Positions 4,190 to 20,989 of a stretch of DNA of 64,000 nucleotides are shown here, one piece after another. This DNA comes from Eutreptiella sp. 'Long Island Sound 2002' (lineage: Eukaryota > Euglenozoa > Euglenophyceae > Eutreptiales > Eutreptiaceae), in contig OZ038383.1 in the NCBI GenBank assembly GCA_964036045.1, positions 66,469,725-66,533,724 on the forward strand, read 5' to 3'. Both the position numbers and the translations under genes were made by a program. Position 1 is the first letter of the stretch; each line of letters starts with the position of its first letter. The notes under the pieces were generated by a model, which saw nothing but the letters and a program-made list of their open reading frames with translations, did not search any database and was not told the DNA's origin.

Positions 4190-5035
4190 CCACCGTTGAT
4201 TTTGTCCCCGCTCTAAAACGTTGGGGACCCCCCAAGACGGCAAGGGTGATGTAGCCAATCTGCCCTTTTGTGGGCCACTTCTGATTTTGTCACCCCTTCA
4301 CAAGCGTTGGGGACCCCCCATAGGGTGGAGGTGATGTAGCCAATCTAAGGGTGATGTAGCCAATCTGCCCACGGATGGACCACTTCTGATTTGGTTCGCT
4401 CCTCCGAAGCATCGGGGACCCCTCACAACGCCAAGGGTGATGTAGCCAATCTGCACATTTGTGGGCCGCCTGTGATTTTGTCCCCCTTTCGATGCATTGC
4501 GGACCCCCGAGTGGGCAGGTGCGATGTAGCCAATTTGCCCAAGTGTGGGCCAATTCTGATTTTATTCCCTGTTCTGAAGCAGTGGGGACCCCCAATTGCC
4601 CACGTGTGGGCCACTTGTGATTTGGTTCCCTCCTCTCAAGTGTTGCAGATACGCGACGACGGCAAGCGTGGGGTAACCAATCTGCCCACTTGCGGGTCAC
4701 TTTTGATTTTGTCCCCCGCTCTAAAGCGTTGGGGACCTCCCAAGATGGCATGGGTGATGTAGCCAAGTGGCGGGCGTGTGGGCTAGTTCTTATCCCCCCC
4801 CCCCCCCCGCTCTAAAGCGTTGAGGATCCCCGAAGACGGCATTGGTGATATAGCCAATTCTGCCCACAAGTGGGCCACGTCTAGGTCCAACCCCCTCTAT
4901 GAAGTGTTCGGGACCACCCAAATGCTCGGGGTGCTGCAGGCAATCTGTCCACATGTGGGCCACTGGTGATTTGGTCCACCCTTGTGAAGCATTGGGGATC
5001 CCCCAAGACGGCACAGGTGATGTAGCCAATCTCTT
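4190..5035 (+). repeat. Degenerate ~86-bp tandem repeat, about ten copies
   Basis: Successive copies are marked by GTTGGGGACCCCCC-like starts at about 4219, 4306, 4410, 4495, 4580, 4641, 4727, 4818, 4904 and 4989. Each is followed by GGTGATGTAGCCAATCTGCC, a TGTGGGCCACTT block and TGATTTTGTCCCC. Copies differ by substitutions and small indels: the 4306 copy has an internal duplication of GGGTGATGTAGCCAATCT; the 4580 copy lacks about 24 bp; the 4727 copy carries a C run of about 16 at about 4795-4809. Long open frames across the repeat (for example minus strand 4290-4766) follow from the repeat composition. I do not regard them as genes. This is an old minisatellite unrelated in sequence to the large array. 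Confidence 0.9.
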
Positions 5036-6695: not shown

Positions 6696-7380
6696 ATTAC
6701 CGAGCTGGGTTTACCCTGTCGAGGTTGTACACCACCTTTTAGGGTCCAAGGGTGAGCTACACGTTTTAGCAAGCAGCAGCAGCAAGCAGCAAGGAGGCGC
6801 ACAAAAAGTCCTTGCGACCACACCGTGGCTCAAAACCAGCATCCAAGTAGCTCAAAACGACCGGGGAGGAAAGGCGCATCACCACAAACAAGTTTCGTTG
6901 CGTTTCGAGCCGTCTAGCCCGTTCTACGGCCGATTTAGTGTCCAAAAATGGCCGTTTTTGGGCTGTTTTCGGCTGTTTTCAGGACGATCGTCCTGAAAGT
7001 TCAGGACGATCGCCGCTGCGCCAAGCAGGTGTTTCCGATGAGGGCCGTTGGTTTTTCGTGGCAATTGGGCTATCAAAGGATGGCAAATGGGTGTTCAATA
7101 AGGCGTGTACCACTCCGTGGTGCCACGCTGTGGTCCATTTTGAGGTTAGAATGAGCCGTTTTCCAGCCGTGTTTTTGGACAATCGCCGTAAGCATGGAGG
7201 CAGATCTCCAAAGCAGGCAGTGTTCCCTCCACGGTGATTTCCAATGCGTTACGCAAGACTAGGACCTAGCTCGGACCTAGTTCGAGTCTTGATGGTTACC
7301 GAGCTGGGTTTACCCTGTCGAGGTTTTGCACCACCTATTAGGGGCCAAGGCTGAGCAACACGTTTTAGCAAGCAGCAAGT
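6696..7380 (+). repeat. First monomer and a truncated neighbour at the left array edge
   Basis: The array opens with a diverged class A monomer (AGGTTGTACACC and CAAGGAGGCGC variants). The next monomer is cut short. At 7379/7380 the CAG tract (AGCAGCAAG) joins directly to TCCATTTTGGGG, skipping several hundred bases that the related copy at 9985-10373 retains. The deletion left the downstream part of the monomer in place. Edge copies being diverged and truncated is what unequal exchange predicts. Confidence 0.75.
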
Positions 7381-14124: not shown

Positions 14125-14192
14125 GGGGGCCACACGTTTTAGCAAGCAGCAGTAGCAACAGGCGCATAAAAAGTCCTTGCGACCACACGACG

Positions 14193-14388
14193 TTTTTGGA
14201 ATTTTTTTGGAATTTTTTTGGAATTTTTTTGGAATTTTTTTTTGGAATTTTTTTTTTTTGGAATTTTTTGGAATTTTTTTTTTTTTTGGAATTTTTTTTT
14301 TTTTTTTTTTTGGAATTTTTTTTTTTGGAATTTTTTTTTGGAATTTTTCGGAATTTTTTTGGAATTTTTTGGAATTTTTGGAATTTTC
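14193..14388 (-). repeat. Inverted (AAAAAATTCC)-type tail at left end of insertion
   Basis: About 196 bp of GGAA separated by T runs of 4 to 20 bases. It is the reverse complement of the A-rich tails at 14575-14672 and 15051-15112. The termini of the insertion are therefore inverted copies of one low-complexity sequence. Regular A/T runs near helical spacing may also curve the DNA. Confidence 0.9.
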
Positions 14389-14406
14389 TGAGTGTCTATT
14401 TTTTTT

Positions 14407-14446
14407 CGACTGATGAGGGCCTAGTGTTGGGCCGAAACCGGTCTCG
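14407..14446 (+). ncRNA. Hammerhead ribozyme motif, copy 1
   Basis: All conserved core positions are present: CTGATGA (14410-14416), stem II GGGCC/GGGCC with a 7-base loop (14417-14433; outer two pairs G-C, one G-G mismatch, inner two C-G), GAA (14434-14436), then ACCGGT (14437-14442) giving the A15.1-U16.1 pair and stem III, and C17 at 14443. The cleavage triplet is GTC, with predicted cleavage between 14443 and 14444. Stem I is CGA (14407-14409) with TCG (14444-14446). Stem III has no loop and is self-complementary, so a monomer would be poor but two molecules could pair over six bases. Dimer cleavage is known for hammerheads with minimal stem III. Weak points are the short stem I and the stem II mismatch. 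Confidence 0.6.
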
Positions 14447-14590
14447 TTTTTTGGCTTTGTTTGTGGACGCTTGCATGTGAGCCGTGTGTGAAGTAGCCTG
14501 TGACCACCGCTGATTTTCTGATTGAGGACCCCTTCTCAGGATTTTCCGGCGAGGACAAGCTCAAAGCTCATCCCAAAAAATTCCAAAAAA
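14408..14590 (+). repeat. 183-bp direct repeat of the insertion, copy 1
   Basis: Identical over 183 bp to 14884-15066 (offset 476). It begins at GACTGATGAGGG, includes the hammerhead core, a ~130-bp body (GTTTGTGGACGCTTGC, CACCGCTGATTTTCTGATTG, CAGGATTTTCCGGCGAGG) and the start of the A-rich tail. Complete identity implies recent insertion or origin of both copies from one multimeric transcript. Confidence 0.95.
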
Positions 14591-14672
14591 AAAAATTCCA
14601 AAAAAAAATTCCAAAAATTCCAAAAAAATTCCAAAAAAATTCCAAAAAATTCCAAAAAAAAAATTCCAAAAA
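14575..14672 (+). repeat. A-rich (AAAAAATTCC)-type tract, internal
   Basis: About 98 bp of A runs of 5 to 11 bases separated by TTCC. It follows the first direct repeat, as the terminal tract follows the second. It therefore behaves as part of the element's repeating unit and not as a one-off poly(A) tail. Confidence 0.9.
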
Positions 14673-14883
14673 CGCGCACACTGCCAAAATATCATGTGTT
14701 TTGAATATTTGTGAATGCAATTCCTGCGCTATGCACATGTATTTTCAGTGAAGTCAGTGAACCAGATGTATAATACACCAGATGGAACACGCCAGTAAAA
14801 TGACGGATGTCTGCATGTGTGATACACGCAATGATGTGAGATAAAGAATGTCTTTTTGAATATCCTTTGTTATCTCACGCTCA
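14673..14883 (+). other. Unique spacer of the insertion with a strong hairpin
   Basis: About 211 bp between the two ribozyme repeats, with no coding potential. GTGAGATAA (14836-14844) pairs exactly with TTATCTCAC (14870-14878), giving a 9-bp stem just upstream of the second hammerhead core. GCCAAAA near 14682 could pair with TTTTGGC just downstream of each cleavage site and would be a long-range candidate for extending stem I. Confidence 0.6.
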
Positions 14884-14922
14884 GACTGATGAGGGCCTAG
14901 TGTTGGGCCGAAACCGGTCTCG
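14883..14922 (+). ncRNA. Hammerhead ribozyme motif, copy 2
   Basis: Same core as copy 1, shifted by 476: CTGATGA 14886-14892, stem II 14893-14909, GAA 14910-14912, ACCGGT 14913-14918, C17 at 14919, predicted cleavage 14919/14920. Stem I is one pair weaker (A14885-T14920 and G14884-C14921; A14883 faces G14922) because the flanking base differs. Cleavage at both copies would release a 476-nt RNA with one full body, one internal tail and the spacer. Confidence 0.55.
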
Positions 14923-15066
14923 TTTTTTGGCTTTGTTTGTGGACGCTTGCATGTGAGCCGTGTGTGAAGTAGCCTGTGACCACCGCTGATTTTCTGATTG
15001 AGGACCCCTTCTCAGGATTTTCCGGCGAGGACAAGCTCAAAGCTCATCCCAAAAAATTCCAAAAAA
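14884..15066 (+). repeat. 183-bp direct repeat of the insertion, copy 2
   Basis: Identical to 14408-14590. It is followed by the terminal A-rich tract that abuts the satellite at 15112/15113. Confidence 0.95.
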
Positions 15067-15112
15067 TTCCAAAAAAAAATTCCAAAAAAAAATTCCAAAA
15101 AAAATTCCAAAA
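15051..15112 (+). repeat. Terminal A-rich tail of the insertion
   Basis: A runs of 5 to 9 bases separated by TTCC, ending directly at the ACACCGCGG resumption of the satellite monomer. Its position at the right border is as expected for the 3' end of a retrotransposed RNA, although TTCC interruptions show it is not simple poly(A). Confidence 0.85.
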
Positions 15113-15919
15113 ACACCGCGGCTCCAAACCGGCATCCAAGTAGCTCAAAACGACCGGGGAGCCAAGGCGCATCACCACAAACAACTTTGGTTGCATTTCG
15201 AGCCGTCGAGCCCGTTCTACGGCCGATTTAGTGTCCAAAAATGGCCGTTTTGGGGCTGTTTTCGGCTGTTTTCACGACGATCGTCCTGAAAGTTCAGGAC
15301 GATCGCCGCTGCGCCAAGCAGGTGTTTCCGATGAGGGCCGTTGCTCTTTCATGGCGATTGGGCCATCAAAGGATGGCAAATGGGTGTTCAATAAGGTGTG
15401 TACCACTCCGTGGTGCCACGCGGTGGTCCATTTTGAGGTTAGAATGAGCCGTTTTCCAGCCGTGTTTCAGGACAATCGCCGTAAGCATGGAGGCACATCT
15501 CCAAAGCAGGCAGTGTTCCCTCCACGGTGATTTCCAATGCGTTACGCAAGACTAGGACCCAGCTCGGTCCTAGTTCGAGTCTTGATTACCGAGCTGGGTA
15601 AACCCTGTCGAGGTTTTACACCACCTTTTAGGGGCCAAGGGTGAGCAAAAGGTTTTAGCAAGCAGCAGCAAGCAGCAGGCGCATAAAAAGTCCTTGCGAC
15701 CACACCGCGGCTCCAAACCGGCATCCAAGTAGCTCAAAACGACCGGGGAGCCAAGGCGCGTCACCACAAAAATATTTCGTTGCGTTTCGAGCCGTCTAGC
15801 CCGTCCTACGGCCTATTTAGTGTCCAAAAATGGCCGTTTTGGGGCTGTTTTCGGCTTTTTTCAGGACGATCGTCCTGAAAGTTCAGAACGATCGTTGGTA
15901 CGTCAAGCATGTGTTTCCG

Positions 15920-19450: not shown

Positions 19451-20989
19451 ATGAGGGCCGTTGCTCTTTCATGGCGATTGGGCCATCAAAGGATGGCAAA
19501 TGGGTGTTCAATAAGGCGTGTACCACTCCGTGGTGCCACGCGGTGGTCCATTTTGAGGTTAGAATGAGCCGTTTTCCAGCCGTGTTTCAGGACAATCGCC
19601 GTAAGCATGGAGGCACGTCTCCAAAGCAGGCAGTGTTTCCTCCACGGTGATTTCCAATGCGTTAAGCAAGACTAGGACCCAGCTCGGTCCTAGTTCGAGT
19701 CTTGATTACCGAGCTGGGTTGACCCTGTCGAGGTTTTACACCACCTTTTAGGGGCCAAGGGGGGGCCACACGTTTTAGCAAGCAGCAGTAGCAACAGGCG
19801 CATAAAAAGTCCTTGCGACCACACCGCGGCTCCAAACCGGCATCCAAGTAGCTCAAAACGACCGGGGAGCCAAGGCGCATCACCACAAACAACTTTGGTT
19901 GCATTTCGAGCCGTCGAACCCGTTCTACGGCCGATTTAGTGTCCAAAAATGGCCGTTTTGGGGCTGTTTTCGGCTGTTTTCATAACGATCGTCCTGAAAG
20001 TTCAGGACGATCGCCGCTGCGCCAAGCAGGTGTTTCCGATGAGGGCCGTTGCTCTTTCATGGCGATTGGGCCATCAAAGGATGGCAAATGGGTGTTCAAT
20101 AAGGTGTGTACCACTCCGTGGTGCCACGCGGTGGTCCATTTTGAGGTTAGAATGAGCCGTTTTCCAGCCGTGTTTCAAGACAATCGCCGTAACCATGGAG
20201 GCACATCTCTAAAGCAAGCGGTCTTTTTTCAACGCTGATTTCCAATGCGTTGGGCACGACTAGGACCCAGCTCGGTCCTAGTTCGAGTCTTGATTACCGA
20301 GCTGGGTTTACCTTGTCGAGGTTTTACACCACCTTTTAGGGGCCAAGGGTGAGCAACACGTTTTAGCAAGCAGCAGCAGCAGCAGCGGGCGCATAAAAAG
20401 TCCTTGTGACCACACCGCGGCTCAAAACCGGCATCCAAGTAGCTCAAAAGGACCGGGGAGCCAAGGCGCATCACCACAAACAACTTTGGTTGCATTTCGA
20501 GCCGTCTAGCCCGTTCTACGGCCGATTTAGTGTCCAAAAATGGCCGTTTTTGGGCTGTTTTCGGCTGTTTTCAGGACGATCGTCCTGAAAGTTCAGGACG
20601 ATCGCCGCTGCGCCAAGCAGGTGTTTCTGATGAGGGCCGTTGCTCTTTCATGGCGATTGGGCCATCAAAGGATGGCAAATGGGTGTTCAATAAGGTGTGT
20701 ACCACTCCGTGGTGCCACGCGGTGGTCCATTTTGAGGTTAGAATGAGCCGTTTTCCAGCCGTGTTTCAGGACAATCGCCGTAAGCATGGAGGCACGTCTC
20801 CAAAGCAGGCAGTGTTTCCTCCACGGTGATTTCCAATGCGTTAAGCAAGACTAGGACCCAGCTCGGTCCTAGTTCGAGTCTTGATTACCGAGCTGGGTTG
20901 ACCCTGTCGAGGTTTTACACCACCTTTTAGGGGCCAAGGGGGGGCCACACGTTTTAGCAAACAGCAGTAGCAACAGGCGCATAAAAAGT

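Follow-up and report, generated by a model that had tools for sequence, protein, structure and literature searches.

Twin hammerhead-like cores in a satellite array very probably mark an insertion, truncated more than once, from a young family of Penelope-like retrotransposons

Penelope-like elements (PLEs), as described in the passages of PMC3846280 that deal with their structure, possess direct and inverted 5' pseudo-LTRs, form partial tandems and have a tail and microhomology at their junctions. The corresponding passages of PMC11167929 describe an internal start of reverse transcription, a tail and a hammerhead located in the pseudo-LTR at the ORF joint, together with a PLE hammerhead that cleaved only with protein. 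Minimal type I hammerheads of the dimer type in PLE pseudo-LTRs are already known, according to the relevant sections of PMC3846280, PMC11167929 and PMC7761336. For the endonuclease-deficient PLEs of protists and fungi, one passage of PMC3846280 states that they are without the pseudo-LTR organisation. Here we describe a 924-bp insertion in a satellite array with a 588-bp unit which, in our judgement, is very probably a multiply truncated copy of a young PLE retrotransposon family; on this reading the family is new, while the type of element to which it belongs is known.

The window, i.e. the whole stretch of 64,000 nt that was analysed, belongs to a genome of 2.28 Gb. Its first 6.7 kb are unique sequence, with an exon-like stretch of cytochrome P450 reductase type at 2342–2700 (best solved relatives, NADPH-cytochrome P450 reductases) and two GC-rich 91-bp tandem repeats at 4713–4895, similar units being recognisable by eye from about 4200 to 5030; the remainder is a satellite array with a period of about 588 bp. 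Between positions 6696 and 64000, blast against the satellite unit left 14189–15112 as the sole non-satellite stretch of 15 nt or more, and alignment with an uninterrupted satellite unit delimited a clean insertion of 924 bp with ACAC at either edge. The longest ORF listed for the insertion (94 aa) lies mostly inside an array, and there is no long coding ORF. A preliminary description of this DNA had recognised a mobile-element insertion whose two direct repeats each contain a hammerhead core, and this view holds for the insertion so delimited. Its direct repeats (14408–14590 and 14884–15066), which had been described as identical, are so over 183 nt. The features are as follows, L085 being a full-length copy of the element onto whose period other copies were mapped:

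14185–14188 and again 15113–15116 (no strand): ACAC, a 4-bp target-site duplication or, equally, microhomology (satellite alignment)
14189–14387, minus strand: inverted element fragment, comprising tail array and start of the ORF1 leader, which reads (TTTTTGGAA)n on the plus strand (matches to the tail and to L085 2015–2041)
14385–14408, minus strand: 24-nt piece separating copy 1 from the inverted array (96% to L085 1003–1026)
14408–14617, plus strand: pseudo-LTR copy 1, 5'-truncated at the hammerhead core (98% to L085 5487–5692)
14410–14443, plus strand: hammerhead-like core 1 (CTGATGA...GAAACCGGTC), predicted cut 14443/14444, stem I of 3 bp
14575–14672, plus strand: tail array of copy 1, (AAAAATTCC)n, 98 nt
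14673–14883, plus strand: element sequence downstream of ORF2 and upstream of core 2 (the internal region of the preliminary description)
14886–14919, plus strand: hammerhead-like core 2, predicted cut 14919/14920, native 5' flank CACGCTCAGA, stem I of 2 bp
15050–15112, plus strand: tail array of copy 2, (AAAAATTCC)n, about 63 nt, the 3' end of the insertion

In the satellite itself, C(C/T)GATGAGGGCC occurs with TTGGGCC about 20 nt downstream, a combination that resembles the core and stem II of the element and is without GAA (sites at 20627, 47723, 49492, 50088, 55960, 59937 and 62327; the CCGATGAGGGCC form occurs e.g. near 15327). The likeness has a blast E-value of 0.55 and is compatible with chance.

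From the left, the insertion consists of the inverted fragment, the 24-nt piece, the core-truncated copy, the 98-nt array, a second copy beginning at 14673 (14673–15089 matches L085 5276–5693 at 99%) and its array, i.e. of two 5'-truncated pseudo-LTR copies plus an inverted fragment. The array of the latter, approximately 195 nt long, is joined directly to the ORF1 leader. The 24-nt string found at the inverted joint of the window lies outside the element in L085. Positions 14185–14211 also match, at 96%, the reverse complement of L085 2015–2041, and the left ACAC may therefore belong to the element; the 4-bp duplication as proof of LTR-type integration was withdrawn, since the left ACAC also fits an inverted element piece. 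The two predicted cuts are 476 nt apart, as had been noted, and a unit-length RNA of this size had been expected from them. However, the core-to-core distance is 476 nt in the window, 272 nt in the locus L087 and 3,635 nt in full-length copies and, as there are two 5'-truncation points in one insertion, 476 nt is the spacing of two truncated copies and not a replication unit; moreover, neither copy has a stem I long enough for such a release to be expected in silico. The layout, for which no precedent had been known, is accounted for by truncation of a known element type.

A genome search with positions 14407–14925 returned at least 86 matches in the window's own genome, a lower bound, as 40 of 569 first-look candidates were scored. 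Among these matches, ten pairs were 3,635 bp apart and one pair 3,636 bp. Full-length copies have a period of 3,635 bp and the order pseudo-LTR with core, ORF1, ORF2 with reverse-transcriptase motifs, and pseudo-LTR, the pseudo-LTR being composed of the sequence downstream of ORF2, the hammerhead core and a AAAAAATTCC tail. In L085, repeats 3,635 bp apart bound ORF1 (314 aa from the ATG at 2058, a start that we chose) and an intact ORF2 (756 aa, no stop). Further genomic copies keeping the core, for which a search had been proposed, thus exist, and the comparison with PLE terminal repeats proved apt, since in the longer element coding ORFs are bounded on either side by this repeat.

ORF2 carries the motifs FDFTALYTNF, GFSMGTNCAPAWANL and LRFIDDG, which we take to be those of a PLE-type reverse transcriptase. 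Its match to Pfam was weak (RVT_1, E 0.0071, 16.5 bits; cut-off 29.6), ORF1 gave one weak and probably low-complexity match (E up to 1), and no GIY-YIG endonuclease domain was detected in either ORF by Pfam at E up to 1. NCBIfam gave no hit, the comparison of ORF2 with solved structures gave no match, and its single-sequence AlphaFold model had a pLDDT of 35. At least 59 matches to ORF2 are present in the genome (59 scored of 2,780 first-look candidates); among those scored, 40 share the top score at 100% identity, 54 are without a stop and five contain stops. The family is young, though the 40 top matches are in part segmental duplicates, with L085, L086, L105 and L106 having one 3' flank in common. 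Searches of phages and plasmids with the element, and of viral contigs with ORF2, gave no match; a 19-mer of the body matches one viral contig, where the flanks differ.

Twenty-three loci (L085–L107, of which L089 and L107 overlap) were mapped onto the L085 period. The 3' end lies at unit position about 393 in the 22 loci that contain one (in L091 one hit runs to about 403; the sequence of L107 stops before its 3' end), i.e. at AAAAAATTCCAAAAA just upstream of the ORF1 leader, while the 5' ends vary. A full period with a partial upstream copy was found in 9 of the 23 loci (L085, L086, L092–L095, L103, L105 and L106) and head-to-head inverted pairs in two (L096 and L097), an inverted truncated 5' piece being present in the window as well. 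The pseudo-LTRs, the partial tandems, the head-to-head truncated copies and the single internal 3' site all point to a PLE. Flank strings, 31 from 30 loci, were also compared; after omission of L099 and L100 (minus strand, with neither array nor motif) and of two tandem joints (L087:2123 and L114), the tail array with an upstream hammerhead-like motif was present in 27 of 27 strings (25 insertions, L096 and L097 giving two each). It should be noted that L085–L107 were found with a query holding the core, and the presence of the core there is partly due to selection. Seven loci (L111–L117) were fetched via ORF2 alone, and all seven possess the pseudo-LTR; six are among the 27, and the seventh, L114, is the omitted tandem joint.

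The element shares with described PLEs, as far as the structural passages of PMC3846280, PMC11167929 and PMC7761336 extend, direct pseudo-LTRs on both sides of a putative reverse-transcriptase ORF, copies that are partly tandem or truncated at the 5' end, inverted 5' pieces, a fixed tail or reverse-transcription start site, and a hammerhead core with an unstable stem III in the pseudo-LTR. It differs from PLEs in the GIY-YIG domain not found here, in its two ORFs, the (AAAAATTCC)n tail, the almost absent stem I and the extra G before stem II. In the first of these respects it is unlike the endonuclease-containing Penelope/Poseidon type and resembles the endonuclease-deficient Athena/Coprina type. 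In Athena, an ORF precedes the reverse-transcriptase ORF, as it does here; however, unlike the endonuclease-deficient PLEs of protists and fungi as described in PMC3846280, the element possesses pseudo-LTRs, and the insertions read here sit in satellite and other internal DNA. That no GIY-YIG domain was detected although pseudo-LTRs are present counts against the assignment to PLEs, given the statement in PMC3846280 mentioned above.

As a PLE, the element would be propagated by reverse transcription of tandem-copy transcripts from the internal AAAAAATTCCAAAAA site, the array would be built by slippage or repeated copying, and 5' truncation or strand switching would yield pieces like those of the window. 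The core would be the minimal PLE-type motif of the pseudo-LTR which, if working, would act as a dimer via its palindromic ACCGGU stem III; it would cut perhaps only with protein help, and would trim tandem PLE transcripts to unit length.

The most unusual feature is the (AAAAATTCC)n array, which forms the tail at the 3' end of the element. At pseudo-LTR/ORF1 joints it was exactly 15 nt long in 10 of 10 cases (7 insertions after removal of duplicates; at the L107 joint the motif falls outside the matched stretch). At the 27 flanks it ranged from 14 to 68 nt, with 25 nt or more in 15, 16 nt in one, exactly 15 nt in 10 and 14 nt in one (in L112, L113 and L115 the measure ends at a changed base), and in 16 of 27 it was longer than at the internal joint (15 nt). 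The inverted fragment of the window, whose long array sits directly on the ORF1 leader, runs counter to a simple rule, and the array is expanded at many new ends, though not at all of them. This expansion is best accounted for by slippage or repeated copying in the course of synthesis, and the excess over 15 nt suggests that a short template was copied repeatedly, in the manner of telomerase; later slippage of the DNA may be an alternative source of array length. In a more specific scheme, which is speculative and to which we assign a low probability, the reverse transcriptase would begin at AAAAAATTCCAAAAA, about 1.5 repeats of the element's own RNA that would serve as a short template comparable to that of telomerase; it would copy this template repeatedly and then extend into the pseudo-LTR, leaving many insertions with a telomere-like array. 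The upstream core, which by itself does not form stem I, would become active only with the missing strand provided by the array or by a second copy (CCAAAAAACGA can pair with TCGTTTTTTGG, which lies downstream of the cut). Eight nucleotides of the core's 3' flank are complementary to the tail arrays, and equal complementarity was found in none of 312 body or spacer 11-mers and in 6 of 6,958 satellite 11-mers. Outside this scheme, a stem I supplied by the tail array was considered and rejected, as full-length copies have CTCACGCTCAGA and not the array before the core.

Both cores of the window read CTGATGA-G-GGCCTA-GTGT-TGGGCC-GAA-ACCGGT-C. The invariant core bases that had been reported (CTGATGA, GAA, the A15.1/U16.1 pair and H17 in GTC) are all present in each, at 14410–14443 and 14886–14919. 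The spacing, which had been taken as correct, is so only if an extra unpaired G is allowed after A9, in which case stem II has 6 bp; in register there is a G.G mismatch, and in neither window copy does stem II follow directly after A9. An extra nucleotide in a viroid hammerhead core is reportedly the subject of De la Pena and Flores 2001. A proper stem I is absent, copy 1 having 3 bp and copy 2, whose 5' flank is the same as in the other copies compared, having 2 bp. The suggested check with a hammerhead covariance model came out negative: Rfam gave no match at gathering thresholds in the whole window, and for the insertion, searched at E up to 10, it returned no hammerhead.

A generic hammerhead descriptor gave nine hits on one strand of 64 Mb of random sequence matched to the window in dinucleotide composition, none with a stem II of at least 6 bp, none with a palindromic stem III of at least 6 nt and one with a stem I of at least 3 bp. 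In the window, the same descriptor gave two hits, which are the two copies, both with a stem II of at least 6 bp and a palindromic stem III. A core match in one window by chance is unlikely, with the provisos that the descriptor was written after the hit had been seen and that the window is possibly one of many that were read. Elsewhere, the pattern CTGATGAGN{5,30}CGAAACCGGTC matched 2 viral and 73 prokaryote stretches, where about 49 would be expected by chance in 257 Gb (arithmetic with uniform bases), and these matches are near chance level. One of the viral contigs (L001:54–82) combines a core match with a stem II of 4 bp and CCGGT again downstream, and, judged by eye, may represent a separate hammerhead of a phage whose stem III is longer.

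The strongest competing explanation, which we consider unlikely but take seriously, is that the cores are look-alikes or dead relics and that the feature kept is an ordinary hairpin, GACUG/CGGUC plus GGCCUA/UGGGCC, the core match being due to chance or vestigial. Single-strand folding indeed prefers this hairpin around GGCCUA/UGGGCC, at -16.0 versus -9.5 kcal/mol for the hammerhead-like fold in copy 1 and -17.7 versus -7.8 or -7.9 kcal/mol in copy 2, i.e. by 6.5 and about 10 kcal/mol, respectively. For 36 nt the hairpin reaches -14.6 kcal/mol, a value equalled by 4 of 200 shuffles, and the missing stem I and the missing Rfam hit fit the same explanation. However, with its flanks the hairpin is no stabler than shuffles (29 and 54 of 200 as good), the invariant bases match and the motif occupies the known site of PLE hammerheads. 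Furthermore, among the 75 stretches elsewhere that match the 19-base core, stem II has 6 bp or more in two, and none combines this with a stem I of 3 bp.

A second motif in the same genome (L108:4032, at G000:C1:92559531, also seen in L097, which overlaps L108) bears on this question from both sides. It reads CTGATGAG-GCTGT-AGTTT-ACAGC-GAAACGCGTC, lies approximately 600 bp downstream of a copy of this element and is the sole other hit of the CTGATGA...CGAAA...GTH pattern in 231 kb of loci from this genome, overlaps counted. It has the same core and extra G and again a stem III that is palindromic (ACGCGT), with other stem sequences, which argues against a look-alike; its stem I is poor (by eye), and here too the favoured fold is a hairpin closed around stem II (GAC-GC/GCGUC, one bulge). 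The locus L108 also contains, at 46–645, a second reverse-transcriptase fragment, which is 37% identical to ORF2 over 174 aa, keeps GFSMGTN, has FLDD and runs into an inverted tail array; since the identity is only 37%, the genome has at least two such families. Older pseudo-LTRs (L111–L117, 7 of the 19 ORF2 matches below the top score) are neutral evidence as regards the core: four of the seven cores are identical and three are changed (C11.1 to U and A14 to G in L112, two changes in stem II in L113, A15.1 to G in L117), with no compensatory change.

Stem III had been described as self-complementary, and the palindrome is confirmed; because ACCGGT is palindromic, a full stem III is possible only between two copies. 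Both cores were folded as monomer and dimer, as had been advised, and other folds are preferred in either form. In the dimer, whether copy 1 is folded with itself or with copy 2, an ACCGGU/ACCGGU helix of 6 bp arises together with both stems II; the GAUGA of each core is also paired and for this reason the two-molecule fold is no double hammerhead, the energy alone being insufficient. The dimeric hammerheads of newt satellite and avocado sunblotch viroid, in the account given in the relevant part of PMC6155905, are alike in a monomer stem III that is too short, here palindromic, and differ in that their cleavage is proven while that of the present core is putative; palindromic stems III occur in other ribozymes, according to a passage of PMC3088659. 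In our judgement it is likely that the core descends from a hammerhead, and we doubt that it cleaves unaided: descent is argued by context and weakness by structure, the weak stem I suggesting poor or no unaided activity.

Much less probable, to our mind, is a retrozyme, i.e. a small non-autonomous element from which hammerheads excise a 476-nt RNA that is circularised and reverse transcribed by the enzyme of another element. The direct repeats with cores, the ACAC at both ends and the lack of a long coding ORF in the insertion would fit, and the passages of PMC4918200 and PMC7229834 on plant LTR and metazoan non-LTR retrozymes describe similar tandem hammerhead cores in direct repeats, the possible 4-bp duplication being a further likeness to the plant elements. 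However, full-length copies have the same repeats around coding ORFs, and none of the other loci read showed the 476-nt spacing. A search of the window for the plant tRNA-Met primer-binding core TGGTATCAGAGC gave no match with up to two mismatches, and neither this PBS nor a PPT, judged by eye, marks the window as an LTR retrozyme. Nor is there the closed non-coding tandem unit of about 150–450 nt of non-LTR retrozymes, the repeats here flanking a coding element. By comparison with the retrozymes of those same passages (PMC4918200, PMC7229834), the insertion differs in the absence of a closed non-coding unit and of a PBS match, in a stem I of 2–3 bp and in a parent that encodes its own reverse transcriptase. 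The retrozyme reading was set aside after the genome search had found the coding full-length copies. The inverted arrays at both ends and the possible 4-bp duplication would suit a DNA-mediated element of foldback or MITE-like type, its terminal inverted repeats being (TTTTTGGAA)n/(TTCCAAAAA)n. This reading is highly implausible and was set aside because of the fixed 3' end; the tips are asymmetrical (GACGTTTTTGG versus TTTTGG), and an inverted copy occurs in only 2 of 23 other loci, the rest being one-directional and many 5'-truncated, as in retrotransposition.

With the insertion read as a truncated PLE, what had appeared to be a new circular-RNA element becomes a young PLE family with many copies and an unbroken reverse-transcriptase frame (54 of the 59 scored matches without a stop). 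This family keeps the core in its pseudo-LTR though stem I is almost gone, and is a useful case for the protein-dependent cleavage of a PLE hammerhead described in the corresponding passages of PMC11167929.
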